This document shows positions 10,512-23,958 of a stretch of DNA of 64,000 nucleotides, one piece after another. The stretch is from Sulfurifustis variabilis. GTDB taxonomy: Bacteria; Pseudomonadota; Gammaproteobacteria; Acidiferrobacterales; Sulfurifustaceae. The notes beneath the pieces were generated by a model. The model did not search any database, was not told the origin of the DNA, and saw only the letters and a list, made by a program, of their open reading frames with translations. The translations under genes were made by a program, and so were the position numbers. The stretch lies in contig NZ_AP014936.1 in NCBI RefSeq assembly GCF_002355415.1, positions 2,356,001-2,420,000 of the forward strand. Reading direction: 5' to 3'. How positions within the stretch are numbered: the stretch's first letter is position 1; every line of letters starts with the position of its first letter.

Positions 10512-10595
10512 TGTCGCCACGCGACGACAGCGGAATCGCCGCGCTTTCAACCGGATAAGGACCGCTTGCACACGCGCTGTCGGGCGCGACCGACA
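10512..10595 (+). promoter_or_regulatory. Two GlrR/QseF-type activator sites (TGTC-N10-GACA)
   Basis: Perfect TGTC-N10-GACA sites at 10512-10529 and 10578-10595, 66 bp apart centre to centre. This is the known site of the enterobacterial GlrR (QseF) activator. They lie about -165 and -99 from the start point predicted for the sigma-54 promoter at 10659, the usual range for enhancer sites. A glrKR operon is present in this window at 18.5-21.9 kb. Confidence 0.8.
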
Positions 10596-10658
10596 CCCGT
10601 GGCGGCGAAGTCGTGATGCGCGCCCGTCAATCGCCTGATTTCAAAGGCCGTGCGCGAG

Positions 10659-10674
10659 TGGTATACGAATTGCT
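10659..10674 (+). promoter_or_regulatory. Sigma-54 (-24/-12) promoter of the outer-membrane protein gene
   Basis: TGGTATACGAATTGCT: the GG and GC are separated by exactly 10 bases, and 14 of the key positions agree with TGGYACR-N4-TTGCW. The predicted start is near 10685, giving a leader of about 170 bases before the ATG at 10858. Confidence 0.75.
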
Positions 10675-10857
10675 ATCGCGAAGGTGCGCCCGAGGAACGA
10701 GGCGCATCGAAAATGGAGCGTCTCGTGAAGGGAATCGTCCTCGAGGCATCGCCTCCCTGTGTACGTCCATTCCCCCGGGGCCCCGCGTGTTCCCACGTGT
10801 GCCCGGCCGCGCGTCTGTCGCGTGCCCGGTCGGGCGAGAACAGGTCGAGGTAACGAG

Positions 10858-11385
10858 ATGATGATCCGCGCCCGCATGCTGCTCTTCGCCCTTGCGACCC
10901 TTTCCGGGATCGCGCTGTCCGTTCCCGCGCAGGCCCAGCCGGAGTTCTTCTTCGGCGCCGGTTACGGTCGTTACGACATCAACGAGGACGATTTCGACGA
11001 GGACGACACGGTCTGGAAGGCCTATGCGGGCTTCAGCTTCAACCAGGCCCTCGGGGTCGAACTCTCCTGGGTCGACTTCAACGAGGCGCGCGAGGCGGGC
11101 AACTCGCTCGACGCCGACGGCTGGGGCGCGGCGGCGGTGTTGTCGCTGCCGCTTTCGGAAAACTTCGCGCTCTACGGCAAGGCCGGGCAGTTCTTCTGGG
11201 AAACGGAGGCCAGCGGGCTCGGTCCGGGCGTCCGGCCGGACGACGACGGCGACGATCCCTTTTTCGGCGCCGGCGCGAAATTCCGCCTGAACGACCTGCT
11301 CGATCTCCGTTTGGAGTGGGAGCGCTACGACGTCGCCGACGCCGATCTGGATACGGTGTTCGTCATGCTCCAGGCGAGCTTCTAA
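10858..11385 (+). CDS. OmpA-like outer-membrane beta-barrel protein
   Basis: 175 residues with a Sec signal peptide cut after AQAQ (about residue 24). The mature part alternates hydrophobic and polar residues in strands: FFFGAGYGRYDIN, WKAYAGFSFNQALGVELSW, GAAAVLSLPLSENFALYGKAGQ, and a terminal aromatic residue after FVMLQASF, as expected for an 8-strand barrel. Acidic surface loops (NEDDFDEDD, RPDDDGDDP) stand out and could bind cations. Start: two ATGs in a row, the first placed after AGGTAACGAG. The promoter is of sigma-54 type with GlrR sites. A hairpin (11403-11419) separates it from the next gene. Confidence 0.85.
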   Translation: MMIRARMLLFALATLSGIALSVPAQAQPEFFFGAGYGRYDINEDDFDEDDTVWKAYAGFSFNQALGVELSWVDFNEAREAGNSLDADGWGAAAVLSLPLSENFALYGKAGQFFWETEASGLGPGVRPDDDGDDPFFGAGAKFRLNDLLDLRLEWERYDVADADLDTVFVMLQASF

Positions 11386-15692: not shown

Positions 15693-15775
15693 TGTCGCCG
15701 GCAAACGACAAGACAACCGGCGGGCAATCAAGACCGTATCGCGCGGCGCGTATCGCCTGTCGGGCCGTCCCGACA
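15693..15775 (+). promoter_or_regulatory. Two GlrR/QseF-type activator sites upstream of BON copy 2
   Basis: Perfect TGTC-N10-GACA sites at 15693-15710 and 15758-15775, 65 bp apart. They sit about -151 and -86 from the predicted start of the sigma-54 promoter at 15826. Arrangement and spacing match the sites at 10512-10595 and 23588-23671. Confidence 0.82.
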
Positions 15776-15825: not shown

Positions 15826-15841
15826 TGGTACGGCGTTTGCT
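15826..15841 (+). promoter_or_regulatory. Sigma-54 promoter of BON copy 2, full consensus
   Basis: TGGTACGGCGTTTGCT agrees with every defined position of TGGYACR-N4-TTGCW, and GG and GC are 10 bases apart. The predicted start is near 15852, almost on the GTG annotated as the start of the gene. Confidence 0.85.
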
Positions 15842-15852
15842 ACCCTGCCCGC

Positions 15853-16197
15853 GTGAGCTCTTCGAATCGCGCACGAATGGCATTTCTGCCGGCCGCACTC
15901 GTCCTCCTCGCTCTCGTCGCGGGATTCTCCGCGATGGCGGGCTGCGCCGGCGGGCCGACGCGAGCCAGTACCGGCGAGTACATCGACGACAGCGTCGTGA
16001 CCTCGAAGGTGAAAACGGCCCTCTTCCGGGACCCCGACGTGAGCGGGTTCCAGGTGAGCGTCGAGACCCACAAAGGCCAAGTGCAGCTGAGCGGCTTTGT
16101 CGATACCCCGGAGCAGAAGGCCCGGGCCGAGCGGGTCGCCCGCTCGGTCGAGGGCGTGCGCTCGGTGACCAACAGCATCATTGTTAAACCGCGCTGA
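15853..16197 (+). CDS. BON-domain lipoprotein, copy 2
   Basis: 114 residues from GTG 15853. The signal has a basic n-region (SSSNRAR), a hydrophobic core and the lipobox AMAGC. The BON domain (VVTSKVKTALFRDPDVSGF, VETHKGQVQLSGFV, VEGVRSVTNSIIVK) is closely related to copy 1 at 11437. The sigma-54 promoter predicts a start point at about 15852, so the GTG would be leaderless; an ATG at 15877 is the alternative but loses the basic n-region. Followed by a DUF883 gene, as copy 1 is. Confidence 0.88.
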   Translation: MSSSNRARMAFLPAALVLLALVAGFSAMAGCAGGPTRASTGEYIDDSVVTSKVKTALFRDPDVSGFQVSVETHKGQVQLSGFVDTPEQKARAERVARSVEGVRSVTNSIIVKPR

Positions 16198-16213: not shown

Positions 16214-16510
16214 ATGGCCATGGAGCAAGCCCATTCTGCAGTGAGCAGCGCCGAGCAGGCGGCGCAGACGGCAACGGAACGTCTCGCGCAGACGGCCCAC
16301 GAGACGGTCGACACGCTGAGCGAGTACGGCGCCCGTGCGGAGCAGCAACTGCGGGAGACCGGCCGTCTCGCGGGCGAACAGTCCCGGGAACTGATAGACC
16401 AGATCAACGAGTACATCGTGGCGCACCCGATGGCGGCGATCGGCATCGCGGTCGGCGCCGGTTTTCTGCTCGGCGCCCTCGCTCGCCGGGGCGTGCAGGC
16501 CGGAGACTGA
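16214..16510 (+). CDS. DUF883 membrane-anchored protein, copy 2
   Basis: 98 residues from the ATG at 16214, 16 bases after the BON stop. It aligns with the copy at 11762 across its length: AVSSAEQ, RLRETGR-type centre (QQLRETGRLAGEQSREL) and the membrane helix AAIGIAVGAGFLLGALAR. It is the second half of a duplicated BON-DUF883 module. Confidence 0.85.
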   Translation: MAMEQAHSAVSSAEQAAQTATERLAQTAHETVDTLSEYGARAEQQLRETGRLAGEQSRELIDQINEYIVAHPMAAIGIAVGAGFLLGALARRGVQAGD

Positions 16511-16966: not shown

Positions 16967-17818
16967 ATGGCAACGATCATCGAACCTACCACGACCAGTC
17001 TGGAAAGCAGGTCGACACGCCGACCCTACTTCTCCGCCATCCGCTGGGGCGCCGTGCTGGCCGGCGTCGTCAGCGGGACCGCAAGCTATCTGCTGCTCGC
17101 CCTGCTCGGCGTGGCGGTCGGTCTGACGGCGGTCGATCCGCAGGCGGCCGAGCCGGTCGGCGCCGTGCCGCTCGGCGCCGGCATCTGGACCGGCATCAGC
17201 ATGCTCGTCGGCGCCTTCATCGGGGGCTACGTGGCGGGGAACATGTCCGGTCTTTCGCGCCTCACCGACGGCATGCTCCACGGGTTCGTCTCATGGGGCG
17301 CGACCACGCTGCTCTACGCGTTCATCACGGTCAGCGCACTCGGTGCCCTGCTCGGCGGCACGTTCAGCGTGCTGAGCTCGACCGTGCAAGGCGCCGCGCA
17401 GGCGGCTCCCGCGGGCGGCCAGCAGAACGTGATGGACCAGCTGGCCGGGATGATCACCGGCACCGGAGAGGGGCAGGTGAACGCGGAGACCCTGTCCTCG
17501 CTGCAGCAGGCGATGCAGGCGGGCGACCGCGACCGCGCGGTGAACATCATGGTCAACAACATGGGATTCACGCCGGAGCGCGCGCAGCAGACGGTGGACA
17601 AGGCGATGCCGCTCTTCAGTCAGCAGAACGTGCGCGGGGCCGCGGAACAGACGACCGAGGCACTGACTGCCGCCTCCTGGTGGCTCTTCATCGGCCTGCT
17701 CCTGTCGCTCGCGCTCGGAATCGCGGGTGGCGCGGCCGGCGTGCGCGCGACCACCAACCGCGTCGTCGGCGATCATGTTTCCGAACGCCACCACGTGCGC
17801 GGCATACCCGAGCCCTGA
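16967..17818 (+). CDS. Multi-helix membrane protein of unknown function
   Basis: 283 residues with four to five membrane helices: two near the N-terminus (AVLAGVVSGTASYLLLALLGVAVGL; GIWTGISMLVGAFIGGYVAG), one at FVSWGATTLLYAFITVSALGALLGG, a soluble Gln/Ala-rich middle (residues 140-225), and one at the end (WWLFIGLLLSLALGIAGGAAGV). The Gly-rich helices and the NMSGLSRLTDGMLHGFVSW loop are typical of a widespread family of stress-island membrane proteins without assigned role. AAAGGAG precedes the ATG. Confidence 0.7.
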   Translation: MATIIEPTTTSLESRSTRRPYFSAIRWGAVLAGVVSGTASYLLLALLGVAVGLTAVDPQAAEPVGAVPLGAGIWTGISMLVGAFIGGYVAGNMSGLSRLTDGMLHGFVSWGATTLLYAFITVSALGALLGGTFSVLSSTVQGAAQAAPAGGQQNVMDQLAGMITGTGEGQVNAETLSSLQQAMQAGDRDRAVNIMVNNMGFTPERAQQTVDKAMPLFSQQNVRGAAEQTTEALTAASWWLFIGLLLSLALGIAGGAAGVRATTNRVVGDHVSERHHVRGIPEP

Positions 17819-17933: not shown

Positions 17934-18419
17934 ATGGACGTATTCAAGCTGCTGAAGCAGGACCACGCGGAGGTTGCCAAGCTTTTCAAGAAACTCGAAG
18001 AGAGCTCGGAGCGCGCCGTCAAGACGCGGGAGAAGACGTTCAAGGAGCTGGCGAAGGAGCTCACGGTCCACACGCAGGTCGAGGAGGAAATCTTCTACCC
18101 GCGGCTCCGGGAGGAGGAGTCACTCCGCGAAATCATCAACGAGGCGATCGAGGAGCATCACGTCGCGGACACGCTGCTCGAGGAGATCTCCGCGATGCCC
18201 ACCGACGACGAGCAGTGGGAAGCGAAACTGACCGTGCTGAAGGAAGTCATCGAGCACCACGTCGAGGAAGAGGAAAAGGAACTGTTCCCGAAGGCGGAGA
18301 AGCTGATCGACAAGGACGAGGCGGCCGAAATGGCCCAGACCATCACCGAAGAAAAGGAAGGAATGATGAAGGGCGCGCACAAGGGCGCCAAAGAGATGTT
18401 CGCGCGACTGGGGCTCTGA
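17934..18419 (+). CDS. Hemerythrin-domain protein
   Basis: 161 residues. The non-heme di-iron ligand set of the hemerythrin/HHE fold is visible: DHAEV near residue 10, HTQVEEEIFYP near 45-55, EEHHVADTLLEEI near 80 and HHVEEEEKELFP near 105. A C-terminal helix with repeats of Glu/Lys follows. Such proteins bind oxygen or NO, or take part in iron and oxidative stress responses. AGGAGACC gives the ribosome site. It converges on glrR. Confidence 0.9.
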   Translation: MDVFKLLKQDHAEVAKLFKKLEESSERAVKTREKTFKELAKELTVHTQVEEEIFYPRLREEESLREIINEAIEEHHVADTLLEEISAMPTDDEQWEAKLTVLKEVIEHHVEEEEKELFPKAEKLIDKDEAAEMAQTITEEKEGMMKGAHKGAKEMFARLGL

Positions 18420-18511: not shown

Positions 18512-19906
18512 TCAGGACGAAGGGGGCCGCTGGCCCGAAGGCGTGGTGGTGCGGAAGGCCTTCGGCTCGAGGTGATAGCGCCGCAGGAGCTTGTAGAACT
18601 CCGTGCGATTGCGCTGAGCGAGCCGCGCGGCCCGGCTCACGTTTCCCGCCGTCATGCGCAGCAGCTGGGTGAGGTACTCGCGCTCGAACTGATCCCGTTT
18701 CTCCGCGAACGACAGGACCTGCGGCGGCTGGTTGTGCAGGGCCTTGCGCACCAGGCTGGCCGGGATCACCGGCGTGGTCGAGAGCGCGCAGGTCTGTTCG
18801 ACGACGTTCTGCAGCTGCCGGACGTTGCCGGGCCACGGCGCGCTGATCAGCAGCTCCATCGCCTCCGGGGAGAAGCTCTTGGGCTCCCGGCCGCCGCGCT
18901 CGCTGATCTCTACGAGAAAGTGAGCGACGAGAAGCGGGATGTCCTCCGGCCGCTTCGCGAGAGGCGGAAGCACGAGGGTGACGACGTTGAGCCGGTAATA
19001 AAGGTCCTGCCGGAACTCCCCCGCTGCAACCGCCGCGTCCAGGTCCCGGTGCGTGGCGGAGATCACGCGCACGTCGATGGGAATGGTTTCGCTCGAGCCC
19101 ACCGGCCGCACTTCCTTCTCCTGGAGCACCCGCAGGAGCTTCGCCTGGAAAGTGAGCGTCATGTCGCCGATCTCGTCGAGAAACAACGTCCCTTTGTGCG
19201 CGGCCTGGAACAGCCCTTTGTAGGTTTGCATCGCTCCCGTGAAGGCGCCCTTCACGTGGCCGAAAAGCTCGGATTCGAGCAACGTCTCCGGAATGGCGCT
19301 GCAGTTCATCGCCACGAAGGGCTCGCCGCACCGCCGGCTCGCCTTGTGGATCGCGCGGGCCAGCAGCTCCTTGCCGGTTCCGCTTTCGCTCTGGATGAGC
19401 ACCGACGCCTCGCTGTCCGCGACGAGACGCGCCTGCTGCAGCAGGTCCTCCATCACCGCGCTCTGGCTGATGATCTCCGACCGCCACGCGTCGTCCGGCG
19501 GTTCCGCGTCCCCTGCCGGCATGGGTCGCGGCGCTCCCGCCACGTGCAGCGCCTGCTCGACCGCCTTGAGCAGCCCCTTGCTGTCGAAGGGCTTGGTCAG
19601 GTAGCCGAAGACACCGCGCTTGATCGCCTCGACGGCATCGGGAATCGTGCCGTGCGCGGTGAGGATGATCACGGGAAGCGCCGGATGACGCTCGTGGATC
19701 GCGTTGTACAGCGCCATGCCGTCGATCCCGTCCATGCGCAGGTCCGTGACCACGAGCTGCGGCTGCGACGCGGCGAGGTAGGCAAGCGCCTTTTCGCCGC
19801 TCTCAGCCGTCTCCACGGAGTAGCCGGCGGCGTTGAGCCGCATGGCCAGCAGCCGGAGCAGCCCGAGGTCGTCGTCGACCAGCAGTATCTGCGCGCGCGA
19901 AGGCAT
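18512..19906 (-). CDS. glrR: Sigma-54 dependent response regulator GlrR (QseF)
   Basis: 464 residues. An N-terminal receiver domain (phospho-acceptor Asp in [10 protein letters not shown], near residue 57) is followed by an AAA+ domain with Walker A (GESGTGKE-type [13 protein letters not shown]), the GAFTGA loop that contacts sigma-54, and Walker B ([11 protein letters not shown]). A Fis-type helix-turn-helix ends it ([24 protein letters not shown]), very like enterobacterial GlrR. The start overlaps the qseG stop by one base. Phosphorylated by GlrK, it would act at TGTC-N10-GACA sites, several of which are in this window. Confidence 0.93.
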
Positions 19907-20448
19907 CAGCGGGGTTGGATCACGGGGGGCATGCGTCGGTCGATCTGCTCCTCGATCGCCTTGAGTTGCTCGAGCTTCCTGCGGAGCGCCTGACGCTCCC
20001 TGCGTTCGCTTTCGAGCGTCGCCTCCATCTCGCGGCGCTCGTCCAGCTGCTGCAGGAGCAGGACCGCCAGGCCGCGATAGGATTCGGCATTATAGCCGGA
20101 CTGGTGGGCGGCCTGCAGGAGCAGATGACGCGCGCGAGCGTCGTCGCGAAACGGGGCCTGCTTCAGCCCGAGCAGCACCGCGAGCCGGATGCGGTTCGCG
20201 GGACTCCCCTCGTCCCGAAATCCCTGCTCGCGCTCCGAGTACTCCCGCTGGAGCGCGCCCGGCGCGAGCAGTCGCACGCGCTCCGCATAACTGATCAGAT
20301 CCTCCAGCTCGGACGACGCGTGCTCGCACTCGTAGGAACCCGCGACGACGGGCGACGCCGACGACGATCGGCTGGGTGGCGCGGCGCAGCCCGCGACGAT
20401 GACGACACACGCGAGCGAAGCCGCCGCGGCGGAAACGCGACAATCCAT
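19906..20448 (-). CDS. qseG: QseG/YfhG-like outer-membrane lipoprotein
   Basis: 180 residues from the ATG behind AGAGGAGGGG. Lipoprotein signal with Cys near residue 21 (VIVAGCAAP). The mature part is helical with a terminal coiled coil (LESERRERQALRRKLEQLKAIEEQIDRR). Its place between glrK and glrR is the arrangement of the qseEGF operon, where QseG links the outer membrane to the GlrK sensor. Sequence similarity alone would be weak, so the name rests mostly on position. Confidence 0.8.
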   Translation of the reverse strand: MDCRVSAAAASLACVVIVAGCAAPPSRSSSASPVVAGSYECEHASSELEDLISYAERVRLLAPGALQREYSEREQGFRDEGSPANRIRLAVLLGLKQAPFRDDARARHLLLQAAHQSGYNAESYRGLAVLLLQQLDERREMEATLESERRERQALRRKLEQLKAIEEQIDRRMPPVIQPR

Positions 20449-20473
20449 TGCCCCTCCTCTCAGCCGCGAAAGA

Positions 20474-21919
20474 TTACGCACCGGCCAGCGGAAGCGCAAC
20501 GCGGATGTGCGCGCCGCCCTTCGAGTCCACGACTTCAATGCTGCCTTTGTGCAGGCGTGTGTACGCGTGCGCGATGGCGAGACCGAGCCCGCTGCCCTGC
20601 ATGAGCGCGCTTTGCGGTGTCGGACGACCCTGGTAGAAGGCATCGAAGACCTTTCCGCGCTCCCGCGGATCGATTCCCGGTCCTTGATCGCGGACGTCCA
20701 CCAGCGCGCGACCGGCCTCGCGCGAGAGAGCGATGTCGATTGCGCCGCCGGGCGGAGAATACTTGATCGCGTTCGAGAGCAGGTTGTCGAAGATCGACTT
20801 GAGCTTCTCGCGGTCGCCGATCACGGTGGCTTCGTGCAGGTCGGTGTGCACGGCGAGACGGCGCGAGGCAAGCAGCGGCTTCTGGTCGTCGATCACGCTG
20901 GCGAGCAGCCGATGCAGCTGAATCGGCCGCTCGTTGAGAAAGGGATCTTCCGTCTGCGCGATCGAGAAGTTGATCAGATCGTCGATCAGCTTCTGCAGCC
21001 GCACGCTGTTCGCCTGGAGAATGCGCGCGATCTCGGCCTGTTGGCGGTTGAGCGTGCCCGGTACTTCGTCGTGCAGAAGCTCGATACCTTCGCGTATCGC
21101 GGCGAGCGGCGTCTTCAGTTCGTGCGAGATGTTGCGCACGATCGTGACCTTGTGCTGCTCCAGCCCGCGCAGCCGAAGTCGCAGCCAGTCGAGCTGGCGC
21201 CCGAGCTCCTCTAGATCCCGCGGTCCCGAGACACGCACACCGTCCAGGAATCGCCCCTCCCCCAGCGAAGTGATCGCGTTCTTGATCTGCCGGATCGGCC
21301 GGTTGATCAGCACGCTGTACACCGCTGCGAGCACGAGCGCCGCGGGGATCAGCGCAATCGCCTGCACGATCAACCGCCGTTGGGTCTCGGCCGCGCCGAG
21401 CTGGATGTCATCGACCGCCCGGCTCACGAGTTCGCCGCTCTCGGCCAGAATCGCGCGAGCGGCCGCGTCCAGGACGGAGAAGCGCTCGGCGACGGACGGG
21501 CCCGGCGCGGGCGCCCCCGCGAGTGCCTGGTGCATCGCGGACTCCTCCTGGAGCAGGCCCTGCAGTCGTCGGCGCTGTTCCCCGGTCAGGGGTCGGGCGG
21601 CGAGCCGTTGCGCGTCCTGAAGGAAGCGCGCGCGGCGCTCCAGATAAACCTCGAACAGCTCCCGGTCGCGAAGCACGTCGTACTGCCGGGCGGCCCGCTC
21701 GAGAAAGGTCACGTCGGTGGCGAACACCTGGCTGACATGCAGGGTTTCGGCGGCGTCGTAGATCGCCTGTCGGCTCTGGCGGGCGAGGCGATCGACGGAC
21801 AGAATCGCGGCCACCTGCCCGATGATCAGCAGCAGGGCGAGGAGGAAAAACCCCGTCAGAATGAGCTGGAGGCTGGAGGTGAAACGATAAAAGGACGGAC
21901 GCATCCCGGCGGCTGGCAC
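20474..21919 (-). CDS. glrK: Sensor histidine kinase GlrK (QseE)
   Basis: 481 residues from a GTG behind GGAAGGGAGC. Two membrane helices (about residues 16-40 and 180-200) frame a helical periplasmic domain. A HAMP region follows, then the phospho-acceptor box VTIVRNISHELKTPLAAIREG, whose ISHELKTPLA-IREG form is characteristic of GlrK, and a HATPase domain with N-box SNAIKYSPPGG, DQGPGID and GSGLGLAIAHAYT. It is the first gene of glrK-qseG-glrR. The signal is not known here; in enterics it relates to envelope state and amino-sugar control. Confidence 0.93.
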   Translation of the reverse strand: MPAAGMRPSFYRFTSSLQLILTGFFLLALLLIIGQVAAILSVDRLARQSRQAIYDAAETLHVSQVFATDVTFLERAARQYDVLRDRELFEVYLERRARFLQDAQRLAARPLTGEQRRRLQGLLQEESAMHQALAGAPAPGPSVAERFSVLDAAARAILAESGELVSRAVDDIQLGAAETQRRLIVQAIALIPAALVLAAVYSVLINRPIRQIKNAITSLGEGRFLDGVRVSGPRDLEELGRQLDWLRLRLRGLEQHKVTIVRNISHELKTPLAAIREGIELLHDEVPGTLNRQQAEIARILQANSVRLQKLIDDLINFSIAQTEDPFLNERPIQLHRLLASVIDDQKPLLASRRLAVHTDLHEATVIGDREKLKSIFDNLLSNAIKYSPPGGAIDIALSREAGRALVDVRDQGPGIDPRERGKVFDAFYQGRPTPQSALMQGSGLGLAIAHAYTRLHKGSIEVVDSKGGAHIRVALPLAGA

Positions 21920-22126: not shown

Positions 22127-22420
22127 CTACCGACTGCCGCTCTTCTCCTGCTTGCGCTCGGGCTTTTGGCCTTTCTTGGCGGCCTCGTACTCCGACTTGC
22201 TCAGCTGGCCGTCACTGTTCCGGTCCGCCTTCGAGAAGTCGAGCCCCTGTACCGAACCCGCCTCTTCCTTGCTGACCATGCCGTTGCCGTCGGCGTCGAC
22301 TTTCTGGAAGGATGCCCACTCGCCGGCCTTGGCCCCTTTCCCTTCCTGCGCGGCATATGCCGTGAAGGAGAAGGCGGAAACAGCAAGCGCGACGATCGCG
22401 GCCTTATTGAGTGTGTTCAT
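22127..22420 (-). CDS. Secreted EF-hand protein 1
   Basis: 97 residues. Sec signal cut after AYA (about residue 23). Two EF-hand loops: DADGNGMVSKEE and DRNSDGQLSKSE, each with the 1-3-5-12 acidic pattern. The C-terminus is Lys-rich (KKGQKPERKQEK). Likely a periplasmic calcium-binding protein. One of three adjacent paralogues on the same strand. Confidence 0.85.
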   Translation of the reverse strand: MNTLNKAAIVALAVSAFSFTAYAAQEGKGAKAGEWASFQKVDADGNGMVSKEEAGSVQGLDFSKADRNSDGQLSKSEYEAAKKGQKPERKQEKSGSR

Positions 22421-22520
22421 GTTCGCTTCTCCATAGCTGGTTGGTTTTTGATTACCACCGCGCGCCGGAACGAACCCACCGCTCGGTGCGCTTTGCTCAC
22501 GTCTTTCCGTGCCACTTCCT

Positions 22521-22931
22521 TTACCGCTCGGGGTAGCCGCCGCTCCCTTTCTGCGGGCTTTTCTCGCTTCCGCTGGGCGTGATCGGGCTCCCGCCGCTGC
22601 CTTCGCCCTTCAGACTCGGACCGCCGCTGCGGGCCGCTTCGTATTCCTGCCGACTCAGCCGCTGGTCGCCGTCGGCGTCGTAGTTCATGAAGCTGAGACC
22701 CGGCACGGCCGCCGCTTCGCTCTGATCGACGAAGCCGTCGCCGTTCTTGTCCACGTCCGTGAACGAGCCCCAGCTGCTGCGGTCCGCCGATCCCGTCGAC
22801 GAGCCGGTCGCACCGCCCGCGGCGGGCTGATCGCTTTGCACGCCGCCGCGCGTGGCGTCGGCCGCGTAGGCCGAAACGGAAAGCGCCGACAGCGCAAAAG
22901 CGAGCACACCTGCCTTCCCGATGGTTCCCAT
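22521..22931 (-). CDS. Secreted EF-hand protein 2
   Basis: 136 residues. Signal peptide ends SAYAAD. A Gly/Ser/Ala-rich linker precedes two EF-hand loops: DKNGDGFVDQSE (complete) and DADGDQRLSRQE (Gly at loop position 6 replaced by Gln, probably weaker). A Gly/Ser/Pro tail follows. AAGGAGGTACTC is the ribosome site. Middle member of the EF-hand trio. Confidence 0.83.
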   Translation of the reverse strand: MGTIGKAGVLAFALSALSVSAYAADATRGGVQSDQPAAGGATGSSTGSADRSSWGSFTDVDKNGDGFVDQSEAAAVPGLSFMNYDADGDQRLSRQEYEAARSGGPSLKGEGSGGSPITPSGSEKSPQKGSGGYPER

Positions 22932-23006
22932 GAGTACCTCCTTGCTAGCCTTCGATTGCTCACGCCCACGGCGTTTTGCGGGCGCACCAGAATTCTCTCT
23001 TCGCGC

Positions 23007-23045
23007 AAAAACGTAGGGCCGGGTCGCGCGACGCGCGACCCGGCC
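23007..23045 (-). terminator. Strong hairpin with T-run after EF-hand gene 3
   Basis: A perfect 12-bp stem (GGCCGGGTCGCG with CGCGACCCGGCC, loop of 5) at 23017-23045, followed on the minus strand by CTACG and five T (23007-23011). It lies within 10 bases of the stop of the gene at 23055 and may partly end or protect its message. Confidence 0.75.
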
Positions 23046-23054
23046 GAACGCGTC

Positions 23055-23444
23055 CTACCGGGTCATGCCGCCGCCGGAGGAACCGCCGGGGCTGGAGCTG
23101 CCGCCCGGGCTCGAGCTGCCGCCGGGGCTGGAGCTGCCACCCGGGCTCGAGCTGCCGCCGGGGCTGGAGCTGCCGCCCTTCTTCATCGCCGCCTCGTACT
23201 CCGAACGGCTGAGCTTCCCGTCGCTGTCGCTGTCGGCCGTGGAGAAGTCGAGACCGGAGATCGACTGCGCCTCGCTGCGCTCGATGGAGCCGCTGCTGTC
23301 CTTGTCCGCCTGAGTGAAGGACGGCATGCCGCCTGCCCCCGCTGCGCCACCGGCGCCGGTAGTGCCTTTCTCGCCTGCTGCGAAGCCGACGCTCGAGAAC
23401 GCCGACAGCGCGAAGGCAACGATCACTGTCCTGGTGAGTTTCAT
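23055..23444 (-). CDS. Secreted EF-hand protein 3 with GGSSSP repeats
   Basis: 129 residues from the ATG behind AAGGAGATC (an earlier in-frame ATG has no ribosome site). Signal peptide cut after GFA. Two EF-hand loops: DKDSSGSIERSE and DSDSDGKLSRSE. The C-terminus has five tandem copies of GGSSSP, then GGSSGGG. Driven by a sigma-54 promoter with GlrR sites. First gene of the EF-hand trio. Confidence 0.85.
   Translation of the reverse strand: MKLTRTVIVAFALSAFSSVGFAAGEKGTTGAGGAAGAGGMPSFTQADKDSSGSIERSEAQSISGLDFSTADSDSDGKLSRSEYEAAMKKGGSSSPGGSSSPGGSSSPGGSSSPGGSSSPGGSSGGGMTR
23078..23175. repeat. Five tandem 18-bp units encoding GGSSSP
   Basis: Near-identical 18-bp units inside the EF-hand 3 gene; alternating CTGGAG and CTCGAG forms make pairs of units more alike than neighbours, as if 36-bp blocks had been copied. 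The copy number is likely to vary between strains. Confidence 0.8.
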
Positions 23445-23510: not shown

Positions 23511-23526
23511 AGCAATGCGTATGCCA
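23511..23526 (-). promoter_or_regulatory. Sigma-54 promoter of the EF-hand cluster
   Basis: On the minus strand TGGCATACGCATTGCT, with GG and GC 10 bases apart; nearly the same as the barrel-gene promoter (TGGTATACGAATTGCT). Predicted start near 23500, leader about 56 bases. Confidence 0.8.
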
Positions 23527-23587: not shown

Positions 23588-23671
23588 TGTCGTCCGCGGG
23601 CGACACCCGCGTTTGGCGCGGCCGAACGACGATTGATTTGGCGCGTATTCTCTTGTCTCTCGACAGCGACA
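23588..23671. promoter_or_regulatory. Two GlrR/QseF-type activator sites between divergent sigma-54 promoters
   Basis: Perfect TGTC-N10-GACA sites at 23588-23605 and 23654-23671, 66 bp apart. They lie about -96 and -162 from the EF-hand start and about -263 and -197 from the divergent start near 23859. The sites are symmetric and could serve both. Confidence 0.82.
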
Positions 23672-23832: not shown

Positions 23833-23848
23833 TGGCACGCCGATTGCT
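23833..23848 (+). promoter_or_regulatory. Sigma-54 promoter of the 25-residue miniprotein, full consensus
   Basis: TGGCACGCCGATTGCT matches all defined positions of TGGYACR-N4-TTGCW with correct GG-GC spacing. Predicted start about 23859, giving a 22-base leader with a GGAGG site before the ATG at 23881. Confidence 0.85.
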
Positions 23849-23880
23849 GGCATCGCGTCGAGAATCACGGAGGCGCGGAA

Positions 23881-23958
23881 ATGCGGATTATTCTACTGTG
23901 GCTACTCGGGGTACCCCTGAGCGTCATCGTCCTGTTGATGCTGTTCGGTATCCTTTGA
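23881..23958 (+). CDS. 25-residue membrane miniprotein under sigma-54 control
   Basis: Starts MRIILLWLLGVPLSVIVLLM and ends LFGIL, a single membrane helix with a Gly-Val-Pro kink. GGAGG lies 7 bases before the ATG and a full-consensus sigma-54 promoter starts transcription about 22 bases before it, so this very short gene has strong support. Nothing else is encoded downstream on this strand before the convergent CDGSH gene. Function unknown; the size and shape recall regulatory membrane miniproteins that bind larger membrane partners. Confidence 0.7.
   Translation: MRIILLWLLGVPLSVIVLLMLFGIL

Follow-up and report, generated by a model that had tools for sequence, protein, structure and literature searches.

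The 25-codon gene that lies behind a -24/-12 element in this stretch of Sulfurifustis variabilis DNA is confirmed, by comparison with related genomes, as a real and conserved gene, and on balance we lean, by a small degree, towards placing it in a two-protein membrane stress module, found in about a tenth of Pseudomonadota, in which a helix of 22-28 residues is paired with a multi-helix protein and which would be wired to the stress regulator of each lineage, GlrR and sigma-54 here and EcfG in the alphaproteobacteria. With a little more confidence, the gene patterns lead us to favour the view that the miniprotein is induced by stress and serves this partner as a small companion or subunit, with GlrR as its controller here and without GlrK as its target. 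A gene of a class easily skipped by annotation would thus gain a conserved and testable partner, and the results point to a GlrR-type regulon of envelope proteins and a miniprotein which goes beyond the enterobacterial glmY and rpoE.

The miniprotein gene and its conservation

All coordinates refer to the whole stretch of 64,000 nucleotides that was analysed, here called the window. The putative sigma-54 promoter TGGCACGCCGATTGC (23833-23847, + strand), an exact match to TGGCACN5TTGC, is followed by a GGAGG ribosome-binding site (23869-23873, +), 7 bases 5' of an ATG at 23881, and by an open reading frame of 25 codons plus TGA which ends at 23958 (23881-23958, +). The product, MRIILLWLLGVPLSVIVLLMLFGIL, is predicted to be a membrane protein of 25 residues with a single helix (mean Kyte-Doolittle value 2.5, rising to 2.9 in the best 19-residue stretch), and it conforms to the definition of the family discussed below, a stand-alone frame of 22-28 codons with the motif WLLG[VI]P. 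The promoter, GGAGG site and short hydrophobic frame are those described in the earlier note and were borne out at the same coordinates; longer ORFs overlap this region. Promoter and frame are kept in G012 and G008, which belong to the same family.

The exact -24/-12 match by itself is weak evidence for a promoter, because the pattern has 18 matches in the genome against 8 for a reversed control pattern. It is raised above chance by the rarity of such a frame downstream, the elements in relatives, the codon-position pattern and the TGTCN10GACA sites upstream. An SD-led hydrophobic frame of 18-45 residues starting 36-60 bases downstream is found for 0.04% of positions, 50 of 127,200 over the two strands of the window, and just two frames account for all 50, one of which is the miniprotein. 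In G012 and G008 the orthologues are 80% and 64% identical to the miniprotein, and the exact elements TGGCACAGCGTTTGC (G012) and TGGCACAGCATTTGC (G008) lie 41 and 51 bases 5' of their ATG; exact elements at -48, -41 and -51 in the three genomes compare with 3 of 2653 control ORF starts (within 120 bases). The search of related genomes for the miniprotein after such an element, as the earlier note had suggested, was thus successful in both, and in both of them EF-hand genes stand across from the miniprotein behind an exact divergent element.

Compared pairwise, the three orthologues show 11/0/16, 11/1/15 and 7/1/13 differences at the first, second and third codon positions, with 0-1 at the 25 second positions, and the pN/pS values are 0.17, 0.24 and 0.26; these comparisons indicate that the miniprotein codons are under purifying selection. 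The earlier note had reckoned with a promoter that is kept while the frame is lost to stops or frameshifts; instead, frame and promoter are kept together.

A second copy of the miniprotein, MIAILLWLLGVPITVIILLYLFGVL, is found 1.5 Mb away in the same genome, directly 3' of a secreted EF-hand gene. Both miniprotein genes of the genome sit in GlrR-type units, although the second unit (L002:1091-1572) has a sigma-54-like site which matches at 8/10 and two GlrR-type sites, 62 bp apart, with one mismatch each. G008 also has a second miniprotein-like match (L047, G008:C57:127943-128017), which contains an in-frame TAG and is shortened or decayed.

A putative GlrR-type regulon

The genes for a kinase, a candidate lipoprotein and a response regulator lie alongside on the - strand. 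For the GlrK/QseE-like sensor kinase (20474-21919, -) the best solved structure is 9m08_C (E 9e-56, residues 16-479), a chain of the QseG-QseE complex (PMC12691602); among NCBIfam families CreC scores highest, with 170 bits, under the cut-off of 356. The QseG-like candidate lipoprotein (19906-20643, -, the ORF as listed, with a provisional start) is so called from its position and a lipobox-like start, and the ORF gave no Pfam or NCBIfam match. The GlrR/QseF-like sigma-54 response regulator (18512-19906, -) scores 604.8 bits with NF011695 (GlrR), the best of 122 families, against a cut-off of 763.

The QseF/GlrR consensus is TGTCN10GACA in the available portion of PMC8745638, and TGTN12ACA is given for three sites in that of PMC6075780. 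Two sites which match the former consensus exactly, TGTCGTCCGCGGGCGACA (23588-23605, +) and TGTCTCTCGACAGCGACA (23654-23671, +), lie 66 bp apart and are common to the miniprotein promoter and the divergent sigma-54-like promoter of an EF-hand gene, TGGCATACGCATTGC (23512-23526, -), which matches at 9/10 and has the exact counterpart TGGCACGCGCATTGC in G012 and G008. The divergent neighbour itself (23055-23444, -, with its ATG at 23444; EF-hand_1, 1.8e-07) encodes a predicted secreted protein with GGSSSP repeats in its tail. It is the first of three genes for secreted EF-hand proteins in a row (22127-23444, -) between glrK and the miniprotein, the others being at 22521-22931 (-; EF-hand_1, 6.9e-07) and 22127-22420 (-; EF-hand_5, 4.5e-11).

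A second pair of sites (15693-15710 and 15758-15775, +), 65 bp apart, precedes the sigma-54-like site TGGTACGGCGTTTGC (15826-15840, +; 9/10), which is 5' of genes for a BON-domain lipoprotein (15853-16197, +; BON, 2.3e-20), a DUF883-type protein (16214-16510, +; DUF883_C, 1.4e-06) and a homologue of the partner. Directly 3' of the partner gene is one for a hemerythrin protein (17934-18419), which resembles the PA2171 ribosome-binding persister family (113 bits, cut-off 190). The third pair (starting at 10512 and 10578, +, within a feature at 10512-10673) is 66 bp apart and is accompanied by the sigma-54-like TGGTATACGAATTGC at 10659 (+; 8/10), about 200 bases 5' of an OmpA-like outer-membrane beta-barrel gene (10858-11385, +; OMP_b-brl, 9.1e-18). 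The long leader of this gene (10512-11385) could hold a small RNA or an ORF.

Exact TGTCN10GACA sites number six in the window against 0.61 expected, a count reached in none of 100 shuffles, and all six belong to the three pairs with spacings of 65-66 bp. Across the 3.96 Mb genome, exact sites form pairs separated by 30-60 bases at three places, all of them in the window, whereas the reversed control pattern gave no exact pair genome-wide. Two further places, both on the + strand, are matched by a looser pattern, and a small lipoprotein-like product is encoded 3' of one of them (851.8 kb). Sites with up to one mismatch are common by themselves (15 in the window versus 16.5 in shuffles), and therefore it is spacing and position that count for the units which rely on them. 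With one mismatch allowed per site, pairs are also found before sigma-54-like sites at the unit of the second miniprotein copy (62 bp) and at a further EF-hand gene (L005, 67 bp), and the orthologous promoters in G012 and G008 have pairs 65-66 bp apart; at the miniprotein promoter each site has one mismatch in G012, whilst in G008 one is exact and one has a mismatch. Pairs 62-67 bp apart, several with a mismatch, are thus present at six promoters here and at four in G012 and G008. Elsewhere the arrangement differs: G017, of the same family, and Pigmentiphaga L124 have sigma-54-like sites and no GlrR-type sites in the stretches examined. The Pigmentiphaga litoralis locus (L124:9946-10075) encodes the miniprotein MKMIILWLLGVPFGLLILLKIFGIL, with a sigma-54-like site (9/10) 55 bases upstream and no GlrR-type sites in 120 bases.

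The arrangement resembles the enterobacterial GlrR/QseF regulon (glmY and rpoE P2) as described in the available portions of PMC8745638 and PMC6075780, in which a sigma-54 promoter is likewise combined with several upstream TGTCN10GACA (TGTN12ACA) sites and control is exerted by a kinase-lipoprotein-regulator locus. However, the putative targets here are the miniprotein, the EF-hand proteins, the BON/DUF883/partner cluster and the beta-barrel protein, and no RNA family was matched when the window was compared with Rfam at gathering scores. Among the matches listed in a search of open-access literature, none combined EF-hand with GlrR. In placing the miniprotein under an envelope-stress activator the earlier note anticipated this context, which the GlrR/QseF-type sites and the adjoining glrK-lipoprotein-glrR genes support; the modulation of GlrK which it added is not supported as a function of the family, for reasons discussed below.

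The miniprotein family and its promoters in other lineages

The family was collected by a pattern scan of GTDB genomes, in which at least 589 stretches were found, 149 confirmed and 80 kept; duplicates of one place were merged. A stand-alone ATG-started frame of 22-28 codons is present in 79 of the 80, the exception (L069) having been excluded from the set as its frame extends to 103 residues, and an SD-like site (loose pattern) precedes 78 of these 79 members. The Trp, Gly and Pro of the motif are invariant in 30 aligned sequences; the motif itself had served to find most of these. Amongst 398 evenly drawn Pseudomonadota genomes the miniprotein (E<=0.001) occurs in 56, and in 30 of 213 genera; within its own class it was found in 18 of 369 genomes and within its own family in 6 of 20 at E<=1, with strong matches in four. 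The reading frame is conserved across families. At four loci (L079, L080, L105 and L117) two different members lie close together.

The miniprotein matched no Pfam and no NCBIfam family, and the family profile matched no chain in the PDB. When the window peptide was compared with plasmids at E<=10, 71 records were matched; among the 20 matches listed, one had an annotated gene under the match, three were without annotation and 16 had none at that place, in a gene table that is incomplete. In Paracoccus ferrooxidans the match is the end of a longer annotated hypothetical protein. An MGRG-type miniprotein gave no match to plasmids at E<=1, with peptides this short being at the edge of what the search tool handles. 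A search of the open-access literature did not find the family peptide strings or a family name, and small-ORF catalogues may well hold the family as an unnamed cluster.

In the alphaproteobacteria the units appear to be wired differently. The EcfG motif is GGAAC-N17-20-GTT in the available portion of PMC6599016; GGAAC-N15-18-GTT is found within 150 bases of 22 of 42 alphaproteobacterial units (at 52-100 bases upstream), compared with 35 of 1381 control ORF starts from the same loci and none of 35 betaproteobacterial units, the classes having been assigned from record titles and five loci without a clear class (L058, L066, L085, L112 and L115) left out. The other 20 alphaproteobacterial units have no such motif. 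Where the partner gene comes first, the motif lies 71-73 bases 5' of it in 3 of 8 alphaproteobacterial units. These 22 units share the promoter motif of the EcfG general stress regulon (PMC6599016, in part), from which the window gene differs: it has a sigma-54 element, and its 120 upstream bases contain no EcfG-type GGAAC-N-GTT.

The partner membrane protein

A recurring membrane protein of about 300 residues was first recognised by inspection of the genes which neighbour the miniprotein. It lies within 300 bases of 49 of 119 collected miniproteins, in all 49 cases on the same strand, with gaps of 2-173 bases (median 21), and is downstream in 39 and upstream in 10. In the 398-genome sample it adjoins 32 of 68 miniproteins, again always on the same strand (32/32), upstream in 18 and downstream in 14; the other 36 members have no adjacent detected partner.

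A separate search found the partner (E<=1e-15) in 68 of the 398 genomes. Both genes occur in 44 genomes, the miniprotein only in 12, the partner only in 24 and neither in 318 (Fisher p 4.6e-30, with related species counted and without correction for descent). Of the 56 genomes with a miniprotein, 12 gave no partner at E<=1e-15; in G017 the search was likewise negative at E<=1e-10. Amongst the best-scoring partner genes 30 of 30 adjoin a miniprotein, compared with 2 of 60 weaker homologues, although the former figure should be considered with caution, being biased upwards because the profile was built from genes chosen as miniprotein neighbours. The close pairing is best regarded as that of one subfamily, outside which more distant partner homologues can occur alone.

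Adjacency on the same strand, common in the family and far from universal, is absent from the window. Its homologue of the partner, of 283 residues (16967-17818, +), was detected with a profile of 18 partners from which the window was left out (E 8.1e-16); it lies behind the second GlrR-type promoter, 6.1 kb from the miniprotein gene, and is divergent, with 21-29% identity to other partners. Searches with 20 partner members gave no named family in Pfam or NCBIfam (best E 0.021 and 0.0076, respectively), and the best PDB chain had an E of 0.24. An AlphaFold2 model of the partner consists of helices only (mean pLDDT 75, pTM 0.55) and matched nothing in the PDB at E<=1e-3; the fold therefore gives no functional hint. 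Among 40 plasmid matches listed for the partner the features, where present, read 'hypothetical protein'.

Proposed function and its alternatives

We propose that GlrR, once activated by the adjacent GlrK/lipoprotein system, would bind the two sites common to the miniprotein and the divergent EF-hand gene, and that sigma-54 RNA polymerase would then transcribe the miniprotein gene, as the motifs and their conservation suggest. On similar grounds, GlrR would likewise turn on the second cluster, which comprises the genes for the BON and DUF883 proteins and for the likely partner, the membrane protein of 283 residues. The miniprotein is predicted to insert in the inner membrane as one helix, kinked at Gly-Val-Pro, where it may pack against the partner as a companion or subunit, and the partner would be stabilised or tuned in the stressed inner membrane; here it is the operon pairing and the co-occurrence in other genomes which argue for the interaction. 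In alphaproteobacteria many copies, alone or with the partner, carry EcfG-type general-stress promoters instead.

Small single-helix subunits of larger membrane proteins are familiar from AcrZ, KdpF and CydX. The miniprotein resembles these in size, in its single helix and in being co-encoded or co-regulated with a larger membrane protein; it differs in that neither it nor the partner matches a named family, and the pairing is one of gene adjacency and co-occurrence. A transporter, one of the targets which the earlier note had suggested, would be compatible with the partner, though no more than that.

Alternatively, the miniprotein could be a free-standing stress peptide which acts on the lipid bilayer, on its fluidity or the membrane potential, such that the link with the partner is one of co-regulation only. 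This we consider unlikely, if deserving of attention. Such bilayer-level action has been described for YohP of E. coli, of 27 residues, which is likewise a short, stress-linked, single-helix membrane protein; the available portion of that account (PMC12719787), with which the comparison is by description only, names no partner protein. The size, the single helix, the stress-type promoters and the lack of a detected partner next to 36 of 68 members would all fit a free peptide, and its odds are raised by the bias of the partner profile towards genes that adjoin a miniprotein. However, the uniform strand of the 32 adjacent pairs and the co-occurrence in 44 of 56 genomes are harder to reconcile with it, and the invariant Trp, Gly and Pro hint at contact with a protein, although members were chosen through the motif.

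MgrB acting on PhoQ is the model for feedback by a small protein on a sensor kinase, and the earlier note had named GlrK itself as a possible target. That the miniprotein modulates GlrK or its lipoprotein, as feedback on its own control system, might be expected from a gene which belongs to a GlrR-type unit and is 2 kb away from glrK, and amongst 20 genomes of the family the glrK-side miniprotein and GlrK (E<=1e-60) are found in the same three, as is the partner (E<=1e-10). However, GlrK (E<=1e-40), which 39 of the 398 Pseudomonadota genomes encode, is shared by only 8 of 56 miniprotein genomes (G000, G346, G364, G418, G484, G498, G517 and G527) against 5.5 expected, which lowers the odds of this reading to the point where we regard it as very unlikely. 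G017 has the miniprotein and no GlrK at E<=1e-60, the second copy stands 1.5 Mb off beside an EF-hand gene, and the recurrent neighbour is another membrane protein. Across genomes it is the partner which the miniprotein family tracks and not the kinase; in its own lineage the miniprotein may act directly on GlrK, yet this would leave the family unexplained.

A type I toxin-like hydrophobic peptide, which the length, the hydrophobicity and the four loci with two members close together might recall, seems most improbable given the same-strand pairing with a larger membrane protein, the SD-like sites before nearly all members and the purifying selection. Least tenable, to the verge of dismissal, is a transcript that serves as a small RNA or leader with an incidental frame: a short transcript from a GlrR-type promoter does bring to mind glmY in enterobacteria, but the orthologues differ mostly at third and first codon positions, no Rfam family was matched and the partner of a leader peptide would hardly be upstream in 18 of 32 adjacent pairs, and because the frame is conserved, also across families, the small-RNA alternative of the earlier note is unsupported.

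For the companion reading, which we prefer, related pairs stand behind EcfG promoters in rhizobia, and the function can therefore be studied in tractable organisms; in Rhizobium leguminosarum (L071) the two genes adjoin each other. A pair is also carried by the Beijerinckia indica plasmid pBIND01 (L130), which is typed as conjugative: the partner gene, annotated as a hypothetical protein, is followed there by an unannotated miniprotein, and ferritin-like, DUF892 and hemerythrin genes are its neighbours.
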